A stretch of 38,585 nucleotides of DNA from Prolixibacteraceae bacterium (GTDB lineage Bacteria; Bacteroidota; Bacteroidia; Bacteroidales; Prolixibacteraceae): the NCBI GenBank assembly GCA_019459525.1, contig JAIBEY010000045.1, positions 1-38,585 on the forward strand. The letters are read 5' to 3'. The notes under the pieces are model-generated. The model was not told the origin of the DNA and made no database searches. It saw only the letters and a list, made by a program, of their open reading frames with translations. The position numbers and the translations under genes were made by a program. Shown piece after piece: positions 9,968 through 18,702 of the stretch (position 1 is its first letter; each line of letters begins with the position of its first letter).

Positions 9968-11443
9968 TTACTTCTTCAGCTCCCAGCTCACTCCGTCTTT
10001 GCCATCTTTGATGTCGAAGCCAATGTCGGCAAGTTCGTTGCGGATTTTATCCGAAGTTGCCCAGTCTTTGTTGGTTTTGGCTTCTGCACGAAGTTTCATC
10101 AGCAAAGAAACTACGTCGTTCAGCACTTCGCTATTTCCGGCTTCGGCCTGAGTATCGGCTTTTAAACCGAAAATATCGAACACAAAAGCGTTGAAAAGCG
10201 ATTTTAAAGCCTCGCGGTCTTCAGTGGTGATGGTTGATTTTCCGTCGGCTACCGAATTGATCATCTTCACGCCTTCGAACAGGTAGGCAATGGCAATCGG
10301 GCTGTTCAGGTCGTCGGCCATGGCGGCGTAGCAATTGTCAGATAATTCAGCAATATTTACAGAAGATGTTCCGGAAACGGGCAAGGTTTCAATTTTAGCC
10401 GTGGCTTTCATCAAACGTTCCAGTCCTTTTTCTGAAGCCTGAAGCGCTTCGTTCGAGAAATCGAGCGTACTGCGATAGTGTGCCTGCAACATGAAAAAGC
10501 GGATGGTCATTGGGCTGTATGCCTTTTCGAGCAGCGGATGATTCCCATTGAAAAATTGTTCCAGCGAAATGGCATTTCCGAGCGATTTGCCCATTTTTTG
10601 GCCGTTCAGGGTAATCATGTTGTTGTGCATCCAATAGCGAACGGCAGGTTTTCCGTGAGCAGCCTGTGCCTGCGCCATTTCGGCTTCGTGGTGCGGAAAT
10701 GTCAAGTCCATTCCACCACCGTGAATATCAAATGTTTCGCCCAGATACTTGCAGCTCATAGCCGTACATTCCATATGCCAGCCCGGAAATCCGTCGCTCC
10801 AGGGCGAAGGCCAGCGCATGATATGTTCGGGCGAAGCTTTTTTCCAGATAGCAAAATCCAGTCCGGAGCGTTTTTCATCCTGCCCATCCAAGGTGCGGGT
10901 ATTGCAAAGCAAATCTTCAATCTTCCGGCCCGAAAGTTTTCCGTAGTCATTTCCAGAAGCAAATTTTTCCACATCAAAATACACCGAGCCATTGCTTTCA
11001 TAAGCATATCCGGAACTCAATATTTTTTTCACTTCCTCAATCTGCTCAATGATATGGCCCGAAGCGCGAGGTTCAATACTGGGTGATTCGAGGTTCAGTA
11101 GCGCCATAGCTTCGTGGTACATATTGGTGTATTTTTGTACCACTTCCATCGGTTCCAATTCGTCGAGCTTCGCCTGCTGGGCAATTTTATCCTCACCTTC
11201 GTCGGCATCGGCCACCAAATGTCCTACATCAGTGATGTTGCGCACATAACGCACTTTGTAGCCAATCTGTTTCAGGAAACGGAACAGCAAATCGAAACTG
11301 ATAGCCGAGCGTGCATGACCTAAATGTGGCGGCCCATAAACGGTTGGTCCACAAACGTACAACCCAACCTTGCCGGGAACCAGCGGTTCAAAAACTTCTT
11401 TTTTGCGGGTAAGTGTGTTGTAAATTTGTATTTCCGGGATCAT
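9968..11443 (-). CDS. cysS: Cysteinyl-tRNA synthetase
   Basis: A 491-aa class I aminoacyl-tRNA synthetase that charges tRNA-Cys. The HIGH-type motif is HLGH at residues 40-43 ([10 protein letters not shown]). The KMSKS loop appears as KMGKS in [14 protein letters not shown]. The zinc ligands that select cysteine are visible as Cys31 (YVCGPTVY), the Cys in WHMECTAMS and the His pair in FPHHEAE. ATG 11443 was chosen rather than the upstream in-frame start at 11500 because a promoter (-7 TACATTTG at 11467-11474) falls between them and the protein begins [15 protein letters not shown] as in relatives. Its divergent neighbour is the methionine locus, so cysteine and methionine genes flank one control region. 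Confidence 0.97.
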
Positions 11444-11466
11444 AACTTTTGATTTTTTTGATGCTG

Positions 11467-11474
11467 CAAATGTA
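11467..11474 (-). promoter_or_regulatory. Bacteroidota -7 promoter element for cysS
   Basis: The minus strand reads TACATTTG, followed by C, an exact TAnnTTTG match 24 bases before the ATG at 11443. A TTG (11500-11498) lies 23 bases upstream as a candidate -33 box. Confidence 0.65.
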
Positions 11475-11605
11475 AAAATTATTGATGAAAGGACAGACAA
11501 TGCCGGATTACCTTCATTTATATGTAATAATAAGTAAAGATAGATTGCTATTCGTAATTAAAACATCAACTTTTGCTAAAACGACTCACTCAAAATGAGG
11601 TTTTG

Positions 11606-11637
11606 TTTGCCAAATCGGTTTTTTGAACTTATTTTTG
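11606..11637 (+). promoter_or_regulatory. Consensus Bacteroidota promoter of the methionine locus
   Basis: TTTG at 11606-11609 and TATTTTTG at 11630-11637 are separated by 20 bases, matching TTTG-N19-21-TAnnTTTG in full. Transcription would start near 11644, about 35 bases before the riboswitch. Confidence 0.75.
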
Positions 11638-11677
11638 TCTCATTATCAAATAATCCTCGCACAAACTGATTGTTTGA

Positions 11678-11772
11678 TTATAAAGAAGAGCGGAGAGATC
11701 GGGCTCAGCGAAACTCTGGCAACCAGCTGAAACAGAAAAGGTGCCAATACCCGGCCGGAAACGGAATTATAA
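11678..11772 (+). ncRNA. SAM-I-type (S-box) riboswitch
   Basis: The leader carries the S-box core in order: AGAGCGGAGAGATCGGGCTC (P2 region), GAAACTCTGGCAACCAGC (the conserved GAAACxCxGGCAACC J3/P3 element), AAGGTGCCAATACCCG (the GGTGCNAAT element of P4/J4) and a closing P1 helix TTATAA/TTATAA at 11678-11683 and 11767-11772. S-box RNAs bind S-adenosylmethionine and turn off sulfur and methionine genes. No intrinsic terminator follows P1; instead a 21-codon ORF begins 15 bases later. Control may therefore be at translation or through P1/downstream pairing rather than classic termination. Genes downstream are homocysteine and methionine synthesis genes, as expected. Confidence 0.9.
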
Positions 11773-11786
11773 TTTAAACAAAACAA

Positions 11787-11852
11787 ATGAAACCACTTTC
11801 TATTTTACATCTCCTGAGTTTCATGTACTTCTCTAACGGGTGCATGTGCTAA
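11787..11852 (+). CDS. 21-residue Met/Cys-rich leader ORF behind the SAM riboswitch
   Basis: A 22-codon frame starts 15 bases after riboswitch helix P1 (leader AAACAAAACAA-ATG) and ends in TAA. It encodes MKPLSILHLL, then SFMYFS, and finishes NGCMC. Three Met (including the initiator) and two Cys make about a quarter of the residues sulfur-containing, which is high. The middle is hydrophobic, so it could insert in a membrane. Possible roles: a leader peptide whose translation senses charged tRNA-Met or tRNA-Cys, a small metal- or sulfur-handling protein with its C-terminal CxC, or a chance ORF. It precedes the homocysteine genes by 108 bases and would be the first cistron of the transcript. 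No homologue was checked. Confidence 0.55.
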   Translation: MKPLSILHLLSFMYFSNGCMC

Positions 11853-11883
11853 ATCCAATCTTAAGTCACGTAAAAATTTCAAT

Positions 11884-11940
11884 ACAAAGACTCAAAGACA
11901 CGAAAGAAATAAAACTTAGTGCCTTCGTGGCTTTGTGTTT
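11884..11940. repeat. Imperfect inverted repeat (CACGAARGCAC-type hairpin)
   Basis: Left arm ACAAAGACTCAAAGACACG and right arm (as complement) ACACAAAGCCACGAAGGCAC match at about 18 of 23 positions across a short A-rich centre. Similar 'ACAAAGACACGAAGG' hairpins are scattered in many bacterial genomes as non-coding repeats. It lies in the leader between the 21-aa ORF and the DUF39 gene and ends 20 bases before that gene's ATG. Confidence 0.6.
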
Positions 11941-11960
11941 AAGCATAAAATATTCAAACT

Positions 11961-13127
11961 ATGAGCATTCAAAAAACATACGAAGAAATTAACGAGAAAA
12001 TCCGGCGGGGTGAAGCGGTAGTTTTGACCGCTGAGGAAGTTTCGCAAATGGCACTCACCGCCTCTCCGGAAGAAATCGCGGAAAAGGTGGACGTGGTGAC
12101 TACTGCCACTTTTGGAGCCATGTGCTCTTCCGGTGCAATTATAAACTTTGGACACGCCAATCCACCCATCCGGATGGAAAAAATACGGCTGAACGGAGTG
12201 CCTGCCTACGAGGGTCTGGCTGCTGTTGACACGTACATCGGCGCAACTGCCTGCGATCCGGAGAATCCGAAATACGGTGGCGCACATGTCATTCAGGATT
12301 TGATCGACGGCAAAGATATTGAACTTGAAGCCTGGGGAAAAGGCACCGATTGTTACCCCCGAAAACACATCAAAACCATCATCAATAAGGAAACGGTGAA
12401 CGAAATGATCCTGTTCAACCCGCGCAATGCCTACCAGAATTATCCCGTGGCGGTGAATTCCACCTCGCAAATGAAATACACGTACATGGGAAATTTGCTT
12501 CCTAACATGCGCAATGCCACCTATTCCACTTCCGGCGAACTGAGTCCGTTGCTGAACGACCCGGAAATGAAAACCATTGGCATCGGAACCCGCATTTTTC
12601 TGGGCGGAACACAAGGTTTTGTGGTTTGGCCTGGAACGCAGTTCAACACCTCGAAACCGAAAAACGAGCATGGCGTTCCGGTTGGTAATTCGGCTACGCT
12701 GGCCGTGATGGGCAATTTGAAAGAAATGTCGTCGGAATTTTTGCAGGCGGCTTATTACGAAAAATACGGCGTGAGTTTATTTGTGGGGATCGGAATCCCG
12801 ATTCCGGTGCTGAATGCCGATATCGCAAAAAATGTCTCCATCAGGAACGAGCAAATTGAAACCACTGTTTGCGATTACGGAGTAGAAGGTAGCCCTGCCC
12901 TTGGCCGGGTAACTTATGCAGAATTACGTTCCGGAGAAATTGAAGTTCAGGGGAAAAAGATACGGACCGCACCGGTTTCGAGCCTGAGCAAAGCACGCAA
13001 AATCGCTGAAATCCTGAAACAATCGATTCTGGCTGGCGAATTTGAGATCAGCAAACCGGTTCAGATGTTTCCGACAAATACCTCATTGAAATCACTAAAA
13101 GAAATTAAGGGAGGAAACGAATCATGA
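11961..13127 (+). CDS. DUF39 / HcyBio homocysteine biosynthesis protein
   Basis: A 388-aa cytosolic protein of the PF01837 family. The hallmark segments are VVTTATFGAMCSSGAIINFGHANPP, GLAAVDTYIGATACDPENPKYGGAHVIQDLI and GKGTDCYPRKH, with conserved cysteines at 55, 98 and 131. In Methanosarcina the homologue MA1821 works with MA1822 to build homocysteine from aspartate semialdehyde and sulfide, bypassing O-acetylhomoserine. A cysteine persulfide intermediate has been proposed. No C-terminal CBS pair is present, unlike some archaeal members. The stop overlaps the next start (ATGA), so the two are translationally coupled. It lies behind a SAM riboswitch. Confidence 0.92.
   Translation: MSIQKTYEEINEKIRRGEAVVLTAEEVSQMALTASPEEIAEKVDVVTTATFGAMCSSGAIINFGHANPPIRMEKIRLNGVPAYEGLAAVDTYIGATACDPENPKYGGAHVIQDLIDGKDIELEAWGKGTDCYPRKHIKTIINKETVNEMILFNPRNAYQNYPVAVNSTSQMKYTYMGNLLPNMRNATYSTSGELSPLLNDPEMKTIGIGTRIFLGGTQGFVVWPGTQFNTSKPKNEHGVPVGNSATLAVMGNLKEMSSEFLQAAYYEKYGVSLFVGIGIPIPVLNADIAKNVSIRNEQIETTVCDYGVEGSPALGRVTYAELRSGEIEVQGKKIRTAPVSSLSKARKIAEILKQSILAGEFEISKPVQMFPTNTSLKSLKEIKGGNES
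13108..13114 (+). promoter_or_regulatory. Strong Shine-Dalgarno-like site before the NIL-ferredoxin gene
   Basis: AGGGAGG lies 9 bases before the ATG at 13124, inside the end of the DUF39 gene. Such sites are unusual in Bacteroidota and, with the ATGA overlap, support coupled translation. Confidence 0.5.
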
Positions 13128-13543
13128 AAATGCAGAAAAAAAGATATGTCCTGAAGTTTCCACCACAAAGTGGAGATCAGCCGTTTAGCTACCATTTGGT
13201 AAAAGATTTCGACATTCGGATTAATATTCTTCGGGCTGAAGTTTGGCCGGGGAAAACCGGAAGTTTGGTGCTGGAACTGGAAGGAACAACCACCAACCTG
13301 AAAAATGGAATCGCTTATTTGCAGGAAAATCAGGTGAGCTGCGAGCCGCTGAACAAAAAAATTACCTGGAATCAGGAGCGATGCATCAGTTGCGGAAATT
13401 GCACGGCTGTGTGTTTCGCCGGAGCCTTGCAACTGGATCCGGAAAAATGGGAACTTCAGTTCGATCCGGAAAAATGTATTGTTTGCGAACTTTGCGTTCC
13501 GGCGTGCCCGCTGAATTTGTTTAAGATCGATTTTAGGGAATAG
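13124..13543 (+). CDS. NIL domain / 2[4Fe-4S] ferredoxin, partner of DUF39
   Basis: A 139-aa protein. Residues about 5-78 form a NIL domain (small ligand-binding fold also found on methionine ABC transporters). Residues 83-139 are a bacterial-type ferredoxin with two complete clusters: CISCGNCTAVC (Cys 87, 90, 93, 97) and CIVCELCVPAC (Cys 118, 121, 124, 128). This is the architecture of MA1822, which is needed with MA1821 for homocysteine synthesis from sulfide and is thought to supply electrons. The gene overlaps the DUF39 stop by four bases and has a strong ribosome-binding site. An in-frame second ATG at 13130 is possible. Confidence 0.92.
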   Translation: MKMQKKRYVLKFPPQSGDQPFSYHLVKDFDIRINILRAEVWPGKTGSLVLELEGTTTNLKNGIAYLQENQVSCEPLNKKITWNQERCISCGNCTAVCFAGALQLDPEKWELQFDPEKCIVCELCVPACPLNLFKIDFRE

Positions 13544-13548
13544 TTTTT

Positions 13549-13648
13549 TTACCACAGAGAACACGGAGGAAACACAGAGTTCACAAAGAAAAATTTAGAT
13601 TTTGAGTACTCTGTTTTCTCTTTAAGACTCTGCGATCTCTGTGGTTTA
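13549..13648. repeat. Inverted repeat (ACCACAGAGA...CTCTGTGGT hairpin) inside the operon
   Basis: The 128-base gap between the NIL-ferredoxin and COG2122 genes is almost filled by a long imperfect hairpin. ACCACAGAGA at 13551-13560 pairs with TCTCTGTGGT at the other end, and CACAGAGTTCACAAAGA-like inner segments also pair. The consensus 'ACCACAGAGAACACGGAGG' is a dispersed extragenic repeat I recognise from many bacteria. Its stem could stabilise or process the polycistronic mRNA. Confidence 0.7.
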
Positions 13649-13671
13649 TTATATTGATGTAGCAATAATTT

Positions 13672-14418
13672 ATGATCGAACAACGCACATACCGCAATCA
13701 GTTTTCGAAGCAACGATTTCGGTCGTTCGGGATTAATTACAAGGAAACTGACTTGTGGATTGGCGTTGATCCGGACTCTTATCACGACGAAATGCGCGAA
13801 GTTGCACTGGCAAAAGTGATTGCCCTGCGCACTGAAATGGAAGCGTATTTGTTGACTGATCCGGTGTTTGGCAAATCCTTCGAACCACATCAGGTAGAAC
13901 CGAATGCCCCCGAGATTGTTAAGATCATGGCTGAAGCTGCCAATCGTGCCGGAGTTGGACCAATGGCTTCCGTGGCCGGTGTCTTTGCAGAAATGGTTGG
14001 CCAGCATATGATGCAACAGTTTTCTATTCAGGAAATTGCAGTGGAAAATGGAGGAGACATCTTTCTTAAAATTAACCGAAATTTGCTGATGTCGGTTTAT
14101 GCCGGAAGTTCACCTTTGTCGGAAAAGATTGGCATTGAAATTCCGGCGTCAGAGTCACCGCTGGGAGTTTGTACTTCCGCCGGAACAGTTGGCCCATCGG
14201 TAAGTTTTGGAAAAGCGGATGCGGCCATGATTATTTGCCGGAATACGCCTTTGGCTGATGCTTTTGCCACTGGATTTGGCAACCTGGTGAAGACGTCGGA
14301 AGATGTTCAGCGTGTAACGCAGCAAACGGAGCAGTTTCCGGAGATACTTTCAGCTGTGATTATTTGCCATGACAAGATCGGAATCCGTGGGCAGTTTGAA
14401 ATGAAACTATTGCGATAA
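13672..14418 (+). CDS. COG2122 / UPF0280 family protein (sulfide assimilation)
   Basis: A 248-aa soluble protein, distantly related to the ApbE flavin-transferase fold. Recognisable segments are VEPNAPEIVKIMAEAANRAGVGPMASVAGVFAEMVG, VENGGDIFL and SPLGVCTSAGTVGPSVSFGKADAAMIIC. The Methanosarcina homologue MA1715 is reported to promote efficient sulfide use for homocysteine and cysteine synthesis. Its presence beside DUF39 and NIL-ferredoxin genes reproduces the archaeal functional trio. Cys161 (GVCTSAG) is the obvious candidate for sulfur handling, but this is inference. The ORF ends one base before the next ATG. Confidence 0.88.
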   Translation: MIEQRTYRNQFSKQRFRSFGINYKETDLWIGVDPDSYHDEMREVALAKVIALRTEMEAYLLTDPVFGKSFEPHQVEPNAPEIVKIMAEAANRAGVGPMASVAGVFAEMVGQHMMQQFSIQEIAVENGGDIFLKINRNLLMSVYAGSSPLSEKIGIEIPASESPLGVCTSAGTVGPSVSFGKADAAMIICRNTPLADAFATGFGNLVKTSEDVQRVTQQTEQFPEILSAVIICHDKIGIRGQFEMKLLR

Positions 14419-14419
14419 T

Positions 14420-14977
14420 ATGAATCCTGTTCTGGTGATTATTGTATCTTTTTTATTGTTATGGATTATTCTAACAATAGTTGAATTAATTCAACTTCAC
14501 AGGTTTAATTTGATATTTTTCAACTATGGGTTTAATTTATATAAGCGAGAGGTTGATTTTCAGCGCTGTATGTGGAGTAACCTTGATGGGATTTATAATG
14601 AAAAAGAAGGAAAGTATGTATTTATTCCAGAGCAAAAGGTAGGATATTTCGTTACAAATTTTGAGTTATATAGACATTATAATATATTTTTTAATGGGCC
14701 GGTTTTGCCGTTGACAATCTTTGGTTGTTTTTATGAAGAAGAGAGTAGGCTAAAAATCCAGTATAAAATTTCATATAGGCATCTGGCATTGATTGTAATT
14801 GGGATGGTTCCTTGGGTTATTCTCCCATTTTTTATTGGTAGCCTATTGGCATTTGGAATTGGATTGGGAGGAGTACTTTTTTCTCTTTTCTTTTTATCCT
14901 TGATATATTTTTATCAAAAAGGGAAGATGTTAATAATCTCAGATGAGATTGAAAAACTTTTAAGAATTAAAAAATAA
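14420..14977 (+). CDS. Small AT-rich membrane protein of unknown function
   Basis: A 185-aa protein not recognised as any known family. Visible: an N-terminal membrane helix (about 3-22), a soluble stretch of about 100 residues with several Tyr, Phe and Asn, then two helices (about 122-142 and 146-165) and a basic tail (EIEKLLRIKK). It begins one base after the COG2122 stop, so it is probably co-transcribed and coupled. Base composition is clearly more AT-rich than its neighbours (runs such as ttttttattgttatgg), which suggests later insertion into the operon. No link to sulfur metabolism is evident beyond position. Confidence 0.7.
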   Translation: MNPVLVIIVSFLLLWIILTIVELIQLHRFNLIFFNYGFNLYKREVDFQRCMWSNLDGIYNEKEGKYVFIPEQKVGYFVTNFELYRHYNIFFNGPVLPLTIFGCFYEEESRLKIQYKISYRHLALIVIGMVPWVILPFFIGSLLAFGIGLGGVLFSLFFLSLIYFYQKGKMLIISDEIEKLLRIKK

Positions 14978-14982
14978 ACTGG

Positions 14983-15011
14983 TGAGCGGATGACTCGAAG
15001 TCACCTGCTCA
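14983..15011 (+). other. Hairpin between the membrane-protein gene and metH
   Basis: TGAGC-GGA-TGACT pairs with AGTCA-CCT-GCTCA around a 3-base loop, 11 of 13 pairs Watson-Crick. There is no T-tract, so it may be an attenuator, an mRNA-processing site or a stabilising stem just before metH. Confidence 0.5.
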
Positions 15012-15027
15012 CTAAGGCATAAAATTG

Positions 15028-18000
15028 ATGACAACGAAAAAAAATATACAACACGAACTCGAATCGCGGGTTTTGGTGCTCGACGGGGCTATGGGAACGA
15101 TGATCCAAAAACACCGGCTGTCGGAAGAAGATTTTCGGGGAACGATTTTTACGGATTTTCAGTACGATTTGAAAGGCAACAACGATTTACTTTCGATTAC
15201 CAAACCGGAAGTCATCCGCGAAATTCATGCACAGTTTCTGGATGCTGGTGCCGATATCATCGAAACCAATACCTTCAATTCGACCAGTATTTCGCAGGCC
15301 GATTACCATTTGGAAGAATGGGTATATCAGCTTAACCTTCAGGCTGCTCAACTGGCTGTTAAAATTGCGGAGGAGTTTACCGCTAAAAATCCAGAGAAAC
15401 CGCGCTATGTGGCTGGAGCTATTGGCCCGATGAACAAAACCTTGTCGTTGTCGCCGGACGTGAATGATCCGGGATTCCGGTCGGTAAATTTTGACGAGGT
15501 AAAGGCTTCGTACCGCGAACAGATCAAAGGCTTGCTCGATGGCGGCGTTGATTTGTTGTTAGTCGAAACCATTTTCGATACGCTGAATGCCAAAGCTGCT
15601 TTGTTTGCCATTGAAGACGAGCTGGAAGAACGCGGAATTCGTTTGCCAGTGATGGTTTCAGGAACAATTACCGATGCCAGCGGACGCACCCTTTCAGGCC
15701 AAACAGTGGAAGCTTTTTTGACTTCGGTTTCGCACATCGACTTACTTTCCATCGGACTGAATTGCTCATTGGGAGCCCGTGATTTACGCCCGTATCTGGA
15801 AGAATTGTCGAAGAAATCATCCTTCTTTATCAGCGCTTATCCGAATGCCGGGCTACCCAACCAATTTGGCGAATACGACGAAACTCCGGCGGAAATGGCG
15901 CATCAGGTAGGCGATTTTCTCGACAATAAATTCGTGAACATCATTGGCGGGTGCTGCGGAACAACTCCCGATCACATCCGGGAACTGGCTAAAATTGCGG
16001 CCAAATCGGAACCACATCTCCGGAGGAAAAAAGATAAACATACCATCCTAAGCGGCCTTGAACCTGTAATACTGACTCATGAGTCGGTGTTTATGAACAT
16101 TGGCGAACGTTGTAATGTGGCCGGATCACGCAAATTTGCCCGGCTGATCCGCGAGGAAAAATACGAAGAAGCGTTGGCCATTGCCCGAAATCAGGTTGAC
16201 GAAGGCGCACAAGTGATTGACGTGAACTTCGACGATGCCATGCTCGATGCCAAAAAGGAAATGGTCACCTTCCTGAACCTCCTGATGGGTGAACCCGATA
16301 TTGCCCGGCTTCCAATCATGATCGACTCGTCGAAATGGGAAGTGATTGAGGAAGGGCTGAAATGCCTGCAAGGCAAAGCCATTGTGAATTCCATCAGTAT
16401 GAAGGAAGGCGAGGACGTTTTCCGGAAACAGGCGCAACGACTGAAACGCTACGGCGCTGCTGTGGTTGTTATGGCTTTCGACGAAAAAGGCCAGGCCGAT
16501 TCGTTTGAACGGCGTATTGAAATTTGCCAGAGGGCTTACAACATCCTGGTCAATGAGATTAACTTCCCGGCTCAGGATATCATTTTCGACACCAACGTAC
16601 TCACCATCGGCACCGGAATCGAAGAACACAACAATTACGCGGTCGATTTCATTGAATCGGTCCGCTGGATCAAACAGCATTTGAAACACGCCAAAACGAG
16701 CGGTGGAATCAGCAATGTGTCGTTTTCGTTCCGCGGAAACGATCAGGTTCGGGAGGCCATTCACTCGGTTTTCCTGTTCCATGCCATCCGCGCCGGACTC
16801 GACATGGGAATTGTGAATCCTGGGATGTTGCAGATTTACGACGAAATTCCGAAAGATTTTCTGGAAAAAGTAGAGAATTTGGTTCTGAACAAAAAGCCGG
16901 AAGCAACCGAAGAATTGCTCGAATTTTCGCTGACTTTAAAAGCGCAGGATGCAAAAGAAGAGCGCAAAGACGAATGGCGCGACCTGCCTGTTGAAAAACG
17001 GCTGGAACATGCACTGGTAAAAGGCCTTCCCGATTTTATCGAGATTGATCTGGCCGAAGCTTTGCCACATTACTCGCCCGTTCTGAATATTATTGAAGGT
17101 CCGCTGATGGATGGCATGAACGTGGTTGGCGACTTGTTTGGCGCCGGAAAAATGTTTCTTCCACAGGTGATTAAATCGGCCCGGGTGATGAAAAAAGCAG
17201 TGGCCTATTTGCTGCCATATATTGAAGCTGATAAAGATAAACTGGACACGACCGACAACCGCAAAACAGTACTAATGGCTACGGTGAAAGGCGATGTGCA
17301 CGACATCGGGAAAAACATCGTGGGTGTGGTTTTGGGCTGTAACAACTACCGGGTGATCGATTTGGGGGTTATGGTGCCGACCGAAAAAATTCTGGAAACA
17401 GCCATTCAGGAAAAGGTGGATATTATTGGACTGAGCGGTTTAATTACGCCATCGCTCGAAATTATGGTGGACGTTGCTACCGAAATGGAGCGCAGGGGCA
17501 TGAACCTGCCGTTGCTGGTTGGCGGGGCTACCACTTCCAAAATACACACGGCCGTGAAAATTGCACCACAGTATAAAAATCCGGTGATCTATGTGAAAGA
17601 CGCATCACGCGCGGTGGGTGTGGTTTCTAATCTGGTTTCAGGAAACGAAGAATTCCTGAAAGAACTTCGTGAAGATTATCGGCAGGTGCGCGAACTTCAC
17701 GGCCAGAAAAAGGCAAAAAAATACTTGCCAATTGAAGAAGCCCGCGCCAACAAACTGAAAATTGACTGGAAAAATACGCCCATTTACAAACCGAATTTCA
17801 TTGGGGTAAAACAACTGATTGATTTCCCGATTTCGGAACTCCGGAAATACATCGACTGGACGTTCTTCTTCTTTGTTTGGGAGCTGAAAGGCAAATTCCC
17901 GGATATCCTGAACGACGAACTTCAGGGTGAAGAAGCGCGCAAATTGTACGCCGATGCCAACCGGATGCTCGATCGGATGGAAGCCGAAAAGATGGTTCAG

Positions 18001-18702
18001 GCCAATGGTGTTTTCGGTATCTGGCCAGCCAATGCCGATGGCGACGATATTGTAGTTTACGAAGACGAAACCCGTGCGAAAGAGGCCGGGCGTTTTTATC
18101 ACCTCCGTCAGCAGGAAGCCAAAAAACCGGGTTCGCCGAACTATTGTTTGGCTGATTTTATTGCACCAGTTGAAAGTGGCAGAACCGATTATTTTGGCGC
18201 CTTTGCGGTAACCGGTGGCGTGGGCATCGAGAAATGGATGAAGCATTTCCATGACGACCACGACGATTACAACGCCATTCTGCTCGAATCGCTGGCTGAT
18301 CGATTGTCGGAAGCATTTGCAGAATTGTTGCATCTTCAGGTCCGTAAGGAGTATTGGGGCTATGTTCCGGAAGAAAACCTTTCGCTTGAAGAAATGTTCC
18401 ATGTCGATTATCAGGGAATCCGCCCGGCCATTGGCTATCCGGCCTGTCCGGAGCATCACGAAAAGGGCAACCTGTTTAACATGCTGAAAGCCGATGAAAT
18501 TGGAATGACTTTGACCGAACACTTTATGATGCGCCCAACCGCTTCGGTGAGCGGAGAATTTTTTGTGCATCCGGAATCGAAATATTTTAGTCTTGAAAAA
18601 GTTGGCAAAGACCAGGTTGAAGATTACGCCCGCCGCAAAGGGGTGAGCGTTGAGGTAATCGAGCAGTTTATGCCTTCGAATCTGAATTATAAAGGGATAT
18701 AA
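15028..18702 (+). CDS. metH: Cobalamin-dependent methionine synthase
   Basis: A full-length 1224-aa enzyme that methylates homocysteine with methyltetrahydrofolate through methylcobalamin. Modules in order: homocysteine domain (1-330) with zinc ligands Cys246, Cys309 and Cys310; pterin-binding domain (about 345-640, [19 protein letters not shown]); cobalamin cap and binding domain with [11 protein letters not shown], in which His758 is the lower axial ligand; and SAM-dependent reactivation domain (about 900-1224) with [15 protein letters not shown]. These positions match the E. coli enzyme closely. ATG 15028 is preferred to the TTG at 15025. It ends the SAM-riboswitch locus and uses homocysteine made by the upstream genes. 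Confidence 0.97.

Follow-up and report, generated by a model that had tools for sequence, protein, structure and literature searches.

A conserved Met/Cys leader peptide between a SAM-I riboswitch and a predicted sulfide-dependent homocysteine operon in Prolixibacteraceae

We analysed a stretch of 38,585 nucleotides from a Prolixibacteraceae bacterium (assembly GCA_019459525.1, contig JAIBEY010000045.1, positions 1 to 38,585 of the forward strand; hereafter the window), in which an S-adenosylmethionine (SAM)-I riboswitch aptamer heads a predicted homocysteine/methionine operon comprising hcyBio (DUF39/COG1900), a NIL-2[4Fe-4S] ferredoxin, a COG2122 protein and metH. We found that the start codon nearest the aptamer is not that of hcyBio and belongs to a 21-codon leader peptide, which by its pattern of codon substitution is a short open reading frame (ORF) under coding selection and carries methionine and cysteine control codons. 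The gene set, the pathway and the SAM-I sensor are already known; the conserved leader peptide behind the aptamer is the new part, and we found no report in the Creative Commons-licensed PMC literature of a SAM-I element followed by a conserved Met/Cys leader peptide in Bacteroidota. Our favoured interpretation, which we hold to be probable but by no means secure, is a SAM-repressed operon in which the leader peptide adds a dependence on sulfur amino acids and which operates beside the O-acetylhomoserine route.

The host assembly (5.54 Mb, 116 contigs, 99.99% complete) includes the window as contig C74, and the closest named hcyBio loci (L042-L048) come from metagenome-assembled genomes (MAGs) of Prolixibacteraceae or Bacteroidetes with protein identities of 95-99%. 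Comparisons drew on 140 Prolixibacteraceae genomes, of which 75 carry hcyBio; on the best 80 of 229 named hcyBio loci, several of them cut off by contig ends; and on 395 Bacteroidota genomes, including only 5 others of the host's order. Labels denote genomes (G), genera (g), loci (L) and contigs (C), and per-genome counts are not independent events, as genomes within one genus are related. The family search with RF00162 used strict filters and matched 64 of the 140 genomes once each: 53 of these aptamers share contig and strand with a downstream hcyBio, 7 precede metA, 3 precede COG2122-metH and one lies at a contig end (G003). The leader of the window contains the following elements.

11606-11637, plus strand: putative promoter, TTTG at 11606-11609 and TATTTTTG at 11630-11637 (from the sequence)
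11645-11678, plus strand: P0 hairpin of 11 bp, arms 11645-11655 and 11668-11678, upstream of the aptamer and overlapping P1 (folding against shuffles)
11675-11775, plus strand: SAM-I riboswitch aptamer RF00162, 63.2 bits against a gathering score of 44.4
11670-11781, plus strand: extended P1, 11670-11683 with 11767-11781, 14 pairs and one bulge (forced fold)
11787-11852, plus strand: leader peptide ORF, 21 codons, MKPLSILHLLSFMYFSNGCMC and stop, its ATG 12 nt behind the aptamer (motif and coding selection)
11878-11942, no strand assigned: imperfect inverted repeat between leader peptide and hcyBio (from the sequence; two diverged copies elsewhere in the genome)

A conserved leader peptide behind the aptamer

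In the window hcyBio starts 108 nt past the stop codon of the peptide. Among the 53 family genomes in which an aptamer precedes hcyBio, the aptamer is followed by a leader peptide in 44, by hcyBio's own start in 8 and by neither in one (G138); where hcyBio is started directly, its ATG stands at +8 to +13 in five genomes (G033, G041, G044, G056, G121) and at +30 to +32 in three (G048, G055, G058). The peptide is also present in all 3 COG2122-metH leaders, giving a total of 47 peptides, 36 of them distinct. Three genomes do not enter the peptide counts: G003, whose aptamer sits at a contig end, and G138 and G076, in which no peptide was read (the G076 aptamer precedes aspartokinase). The metA-type leaders of G073, G074 and G111-G114 were kept out of the 47-peptide motif count. 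A TTG start has to be assumed for G099, one of the 44, whose hcyBio match holds two internal stops; the peptides of G127 and G131 need a GTG start. Spacing to the aptamer is fixed, with the first ATG at +8 to +15 in 52 of 63 leaders versus 13% in shuffles.

All 47 peptides before hcyBio or COG2122 carry the C-terminal motif [HY]-[FG]-[AS]-N-x-C-M, an expression formulated only after the peptides had been seen, and anchoring on the motif places Met in 47/47, His or Tyr in 47/47, Asn in 46/47 and Cys in 45/47, with a variable N-terminal half. Codons at these positions vary synonymously (Asn as AAT in 35 and AAC in 11, Cys as TGT in 32 and TGC in 13, His likewise varied). The ratio of nonsynonymous to synonymous differences (pN/pS) was 0.31 in frame for 19 distinct 25-mers and 0.26 for 10 21-mers, versus 0.74-1.96 in the other frames, and none of 100 column shuffles reached so low a value in either peptide group. 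Met and Cys make up 15.3% of residues in 53 leader peptides compared to 4.0% in four operon proteins. A strict DNA pattern, ATGYAYTTYKCNAAYNNNTGYATGYG, matched the host genome only among the 395 sampled genomes; this negative is little informative on near relatives, because the 5 same-order genomes all lack RF00162 and the pattern omits the HGxN form.

The residue-level conservation of the C-terminal motif might also suggest a functional micropeptide, for example a metal- or thiol-binding one, that is co-regulated by chance. We consider this highly improbable: no copy was found other than downstream of the aptamer or immediately before hcyBio or COG2122, the N-terminal half is variable, and other Met-rich peptides fill the same place before aspartokinase-metY-metA.

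The fixed spacing to the aptamer would likewise fit an ORF that is a mere ribosome-loading or coupling device, in which riboswitch-controlled translation protects the mRNA from Rho or allows re-initiation at hcyBio with no sensing, and an upstream ORF (uORF) behind a Mycobacterium B12 riboswitch is described as acting mainly by termination-reinitiation (PMC11260477). Selection on specific residues and the enrichment of Met and Cys make this explanation doubtful, as do hairpins at the peptide's stop codon. By eye, the stop codon lies in or at a hairpin loop in most g5 leaders and in G097 (g11), G115 (g18), G132 (g22), G072 (g7) and g21, with arms that vary yet stay paired (GCGGU...ACCGC, GCGCU...AGCGC, GCGC...GCGC), and this pattern is not followed by G047, G050 and G052 (g5). 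In a peptide attenuator such a hairpin would be the switch on which the peptide acts. G059, where no aptamer was detected, yet has the peptide with a hairpin at its stop codon. From general knowledge, the 108-nt gap to hcyBio is also long for re-initiation.

A longer C-terminal consensus, S-[FY]-[ML]-[HY]-[FG]-[AS]-N-x-C-M-[RC], with synonymous changes beyond the Met and Cys codons, underlies a further possibility that we raise tentatively. Here the leader peptide would be a new ribosome-arrest peptide that responds to methionine, cysteine or SAM, either within the exit tunnel or as translation terminates. Together, it and the SAM-I aptamer would gate sulfide-dependent homocysteine synthesis with two inputs, and parallel O-acetylhomoserine operons would be controlled by other Met/Cys-rich leader peptides.

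Promoter and alternative helices around the aptamer

The first-pass annotation of this DNA had described a consensus promoter, and promoter-like elements are indeed present and conserved: TAnnTTTG, which we take to be the Bacteroidota -7 element, occurs at most 80 nt upstream of the aptamer in 59/64 family genomes, versus 7% of shuffles. A sigma-70 scan gave no excess over shuffles (12 sites versus a mean of 10.5, standard deviation (sd) 3.3). The aptamer is the single RF00162 match in the host genome.

P0 and the extended P1 are mutually exclusive, as they share P1 bases, and the extended P1 stops 5 nt short of the leader-peptide ATG. Ligand-free folding energies were -42.4 kcal/mol for the P0 state and -41.5 kcal/mol for the extended-P1 state, and such near-equal energies would therefore suit a switch tipped by SAM. 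P0 was better than shuffles (p<0.05) in 35/64 genomes, distributed by genus as 10/11 in g1, 1/1 in g4, 20/31 in g5, 1/2 in g11, 2/2 in g19 and 1/1 in g22. Its inner pairs 7-12 were formed in 187 of 252 cells (74%) versus 40-52% when the arms were slid, a count in which the outer pairs are anchored and which covers 42 distinct arm pairs from 50 genomes after 14 genomes without the TCAAA anchor were dropped. Since the significance of P0 and P1 is uneven across genera, the folding comparisons give the P0/P1 switch good support in the window's genus and in a few further genera; elsewhere the arrangement may be different.

The leader also contains the inverted repeat at 11878-11942, and by eye the hcyBio SAM-I leaders of Clostridia and Nitrospirae show a hairpin followed by T, which would be in line with an aptamer that acts through transcription termination (intrinsic or Rho) within 11776-11960 and with a peptide that is a minor by-product. 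We judge this unlikely. A terminator scan found no terminator-like site on the plus strand of 11500-13499 and no excess overall (13 sites versus a shuffle mean of 9.8, sd 3.3), the repeat has diverged genomic copies (two in contig C90, 72-74% identity), and by eye several relatives have leaders without it.

Proposed mechanism

We propose that in the absence of SAM, P0 would hold the 5' strand of P1 and leave the A/U-rich stretch before the first AUG open. With SAM bound, P1 would form and zip outward to 5 nt before the AUG, blocking ribosome loading at the first start codon and turning the operon off. The leader peptide would then most likely tie downstream expression to the supply of methionine and cysteine, or to the nascent peptide itself; in this possible second step, ribosomes could pause on Met or Cys shortage or arrest on the nascent peptide, and the effect could be relayed to hcyBio by structure, Rho or coupling. 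Once expressed, HcyBio, the NIL-ferredoxin and the COG2122 protein would convert sulfide and aspartate semialdehyde to homocysteine, which MetH would convert to methionine. Structural evidence speaks for the first step, in which SAM would block initiation, unevenly across genera, and peptide sensing is the less certain of the two. The direct SAM feedback of the first-pass annotation is incomplete in that the aptamer-proximal start codon belongs to the leader peptide.

Several observations weigh against this mechanism. P0 was not significant in 29/64 genomes, including all 16 of g6, g7, g8, g17, g18, g21 and g23, and the P1 extension alone reached p<0.05 in just 11/64 genomes, all of them g5 and none in the window's genus. 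Classical attenuation would call for more control codons than the host peptide offers, which has just two for Met and two for Cys among its last nine. The stop-codon hairpin beats shuffles modestly (mean z of -1.06 in 25 g5 genomes and -2.12 in 5 g21 genomes), and the window's genus lacks it (mean z +0.67 over 10 genomes). Under the strict filters, no aptamer was detected in 21/75 hcyBio genomes, and the peptide was absent in 6 of the 7 such leaders that were read.

Distribution of the aptamer and the gene cluster

The first-pass annotation had singled out the complete trio plus metH behind one riboswitch. Linkage of the aptamer to hcyBio is found throughout the family. Of the 19 nearest named loci (L042-L060), 16 have metH downstream of the module, compared to none of L061-L081. 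In the best 80 named loci, hcyBio and the NIL-ferredoxin occur together in 79 (all but L105), and 68 have a COG2122 match in the vicinity, in one case on the opposite strand. With a model built from the family aptamers, 26 of these 80 loci had matches at E<=0.05, 28 in all, and Rfam confirmed SAM-I in all 13 distant loci rescanned (L082, L092 and 11 from Clostridia/Bacillota or Nitrospirae); the matches in L042-L046 and L048-L055 rest on the family model. Because SAM-I is confirmed before hcyBio in Clostridia/Bacillota and Nitrospirae too, it is not peculiar to the host, and by this comparison the aptamer-hcyBio arrangement is conserved and older than the host's genus.

The riboswitch also occurs on other genes. 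In G073, G074, G076 and G111-G114, all without hcyBio, the aptamer lies 2.9-3.1 kb upstream of metA, and aspartokinase-metY-metA stands behind it in all 5 of these 7 metA-type stretches that were examined. Among them, the g17 genomes G111 and G114 have aspartokinase-metY-metA behind an aptamer and a Met-rich ORF, and in the g17 loci L155, L156, L160 and L162 the aptamer ends 12 nt before a Met-rich short ORF (for example ...SGLMTASSMMPTMTMSMR). G127, G128 and G131 (L171, L172, L173) carry the leader peptide, COG2122 and metH behind the aptamer; their genomes lack hcyBio, and the NIL-ferredoxin had no match in the three stretches. Behind metH in L172 and L173 lies an ORF that is presumably metF-like. 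COG2122 seems, from this gene content, to have a role outside the hcyBio trio, because riboswitch, peptide, COG2122 and metH are kept in genomes without hcyBio. Family-wide, the COG2122 protein occurs in 82/140 genomes and metH in 137/140.

Beyond the family, Met-rich short ORFs follow the aptamer in two more Bacteroidota loci, L082 (a Butyricimonas MAG, at +15) and L092 (at +14). L092 joins both branches: from 67-2020 on, it holds a SAM-I aptamer, the Met-rich short ORF MKQRFFRDILSHPLICNYFIMVMPMGMR, aspartokinase and hcyBio-NIL-ferredoxin-COG2122-metH. Eight Clostridia/Nitrospirae leaders (without L113, L114 and L118) contain short ORFs, such as one in L106 that overlaps the aptamer, with no motif by eye. 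SAM-I matches were found in 314/395 sampled Bacteroidota genomes, and among 33 of their leaders inspected by eye a Met/Cys-rich short ORF was present in 3 (G141, G277, G408). In L233 (G408), the aptamer is followed by a terminator-like hairpin and then by a short ORF with six consecutive Cys (MLQKQYYHIAHNCFTHMMCCCCCCMPFGA).

Methionine routes in the host and the family

The first-pass annotation read the module as a methionine route that bypasses O-acetylhomoserine, possibly the sole one, under simple SAM feedback on hcyBio. The complete trio with metH behind a SAM-I aptamer agrees with this, as does a best MetX match of only 29.8 bits in the host genome. We nevertheless consider it distinctly unlikely, as the leader peptide sits between aptamer and hcyBio and a sole route is refuted for the host by gene content: a search for metX, metY and metA, which the annotation had suggested, recovered a full acetylhomoserine route with MetA in MetX's place. 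PF01053 matched four host proteins above 170 bits, two of them O-acetylhomoserine sulfhydrylases (MetY; TIGR01326 at 693.5 and 664.8 bits versus a cut-off of 495.1), and MetA_acetyl scored 494.2 bits with NF047918 (cut-off 460.5). One of the two MetY copies lies in an aspartokinase-MetY-MetA_acetyl cluster on contig C100. By gene content, the operon would thus run beside a complete O-acetylhomoserine route in the host.

In the family, 64/75 hcyBio genomes also have metA over the cut-off. The MetX profile TIGR01392 (cut-off 500 bits) reached its cut-off in 0/140 family genomes and 0/14 controls, so MetX was judged by score; MetX-like matches of 206-208 bits occur in three family genomes. Among the 11/75 hcyBio genomes without metA over the cut-off, G102 and G115 have such a MetX-like protein (206-208 bits), and G134 (98% complete), G059 (96%) and G048 (93%) have neither metA over the cut-off nor a MetX match above 27 bits. 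In these last three genomes, gene content suggests that hcyBio may be the sole route.

No Rfam element, including SAM-II, reached its gathering score before the host's metA or metY genes. On contig C100 (L132), a Met-rich short ORF, MNHSEKNSTPSTSHLMGCNDSMMSMYMIMR, lies some 420 nt ahead of the start of aspartokinase (8601), with a TAGCCTTCAG...TGAAGGCTA hairpin at its stop by eye, aspartokinase-metY-metA behind it and no Rfam riboswitch. Upstream of the second metY (L133, C34) lies a Cys/Met-rich short ORF, MKTTQQISNENLFRINGTGNLTAGPSCCCQMYLSAFRMRMCS, ending in ...SCCCQMYLSAFRMRMCS. The idea of layered control gains weight because such Met- or Cys/Met-rich short ORFs precede the host's other metY/metA loci.

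Genes of the operon

Profile and Rfam scans bore out the gene order given by the first-pass annotation, from the SAM-I RNA through hcyBio/DUF39, the NIL-ferredoxin and COG2122 to metH, all in one direction. It had missed a 185-aa ORF, the leader peptide at 11787-11852 and the inverted repeats in two gaps.

11961-13127, plus strand: hcyBio (DUF39/COG1900), predicted L-aspartate semialdehyde sulfurtransferase catalytic subunit; PF01837 at 498 bits against a gathering cut-off of 26.2
13124-13543, plus strand: NIL-2[4Fe-4S] ferredoxin subunit; NIL and Fer4 matches, ATGA overlap with hcyBio
13551-13645, no strand assigned: inverted-repeat stretch in the 128-nt gap upstream of COG2122 (from the sequence)
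13672-14418, plus strand: COG2122/UPF0280 (MA1715-like) protein; NF003323 and PDB 2o34 matches
14420-14977, plus strand: 185-aa ORF between COG2122 and metH, hydrophobic segments by eye; no Pfam or NCBIfam family match
15028-18702, plus strand: metH, cobalamin-dependent methionine synthase, ATG at 15028; TIGR02082 (all domains) and NF007024 over cut-off

From hcyBio to metH the gaps are, in order, -4, 128, 1 and 50 nt, and because of these short gaps and the shared strand the operon is likely one transcription unit. The best NCBIfam match of the COG2122 protein, PRK04334/NF003323, scored 266.5 bits over residues 3-245, just below the cut-off of 271, and PDB 2o34 matched it with an E value of 9.7e-35. 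Pfam returned nothing for this protein or for the 185-aa ORF, even at E<=1, and the 185-aa ORF had no tblastn match of at least 45 bits in the best 80 of 229 named loci. For hcyBio, a coenzyme M synthase identity (MMP16, TIGR03287) was ruled out, at 140.1 bits against a cut-off of 363.95.

The three families match the published pathway invoked by the first-pass annotation as the MA1821-MA1822/MA1715 module (PMC5764234, PMC12068725), in which DUF39, NIL/ferredoxin and COG2122 proteins are described as making homocysteine from aspartate semialdehyde in Desulfovibrio (D. vulgaris) and Methanosarcina. Cys55 of hcyBio is kept in 81/81 aligned homologues and Cys131 in 78/81, the window included; for MA1821 of M. 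acetivorans, Cys54 is described as essential and Cys131 as not (PMC12068725), and Cys55 here corresponds to Cys54 by residue number only, MA1821 not being in the alignment. All eight cluster cysteines of the ferredoxin, for two [4Fe-4S] sites, occur in 78/78 sequences, the window included. As in M. acetivorans, the same three families are accompanied by a second methionine pathway; unlike there, where according to PMC12068725 the subunit bears a SAM-binding CBS domain, the host's does not and metH is part of the cluster. The same source ascribes methionine control of the archaeal enzyme to the NIL domain and SAM control to the CBS domain. The CBS domain is not known to define the hcyBio family. 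Because a Pfam scan gave no CBS match in the window's hcyBio, SAM sensing seems to lie in the mRNA here while the NIL domain stays.

Both inverted repeats (11878-11942 and 13551-13645) are composed of CACAGAG/CACGAAG-type words. On the minus strand, the divergent neighbour at 9968-11500 reads by eye as a cysteinyl-tRNA synthetase and adjoins the leader peptide with its Cys codons. Elsewhere in the family, one hcyBio match is broken into two overlapping pieces (G013:C44:32990-34023), and a weak second match of 20.9 bits lies within a 4597-aa frame (G062:C1:14904-15239).

Relation to known systems and significance

SAM-I elements are known in Bacteroidetes, as is control of translation with the ribosome-binding site in the 3' side of P1 (PMC2258182). 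The aptamer described here likewise exceeds the gathering score; its proposed switching partner, P0, lies 5' of the aptamer, and the start it could reach is that of the leader peptide. In Mycobacterium tuberculosis, too, riboswitches and short ORFs together shape expression, as reported for B12 riboswitches with translated uORFs, in another phylum and for another ligand; there the ppe2 uORF overlaps the gene, and the excerpted account describes no Met/Cys-rich motif (PMC11260477). The SAM-II metA leader of Sinorhizobium resembles ours in that the first AUG is close to a SAM riboswitch and the true start follows 74 nt later, and differs in that AUG1 and AUG2 are reported to be in frame and AUG1 dispensable (PMC9373788), whereas the first ORF of our leader ends at a stop of its own and encodes a conserved peptide. 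Like amino-acid leader-peptide attenuators, the host leader places a short ORF with codons for the pathway's products before a biosynthetic operon; unlike them, it has few control codons, other conserved residues, a riboswitch in front and no stop-codon hairpin in its genus. Clues for leader-peptide attenuation have been described in Flavobacterium psychrophilum (PMC9723704), and attenuation was suspected in Bacteroides thetaiotaomicron from short ORFs in long 5' untranslated regions (PMC7366714).

These results suggest that one methionine operon is under two consecutive sensors, a SAM riboswitch and then a sulfur-amino-acid leader peptide. The genomes form an evolutionary series that makes this logic testable, with the gene started directly, the gene behind a peptide, the peptide without a detected riboswitch and the riboswitch on the other route. 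Relevant to the function of COG2122 are the genomes in which the riboswitch heads COG2122-metH and hcyBio is missing. The hcyBio module and the O-acetylhomoserine route coexist in 64 of the family's 75 hcyBio genomes, and the single SAM-I aptamer, where present, lies on one of the two routes.

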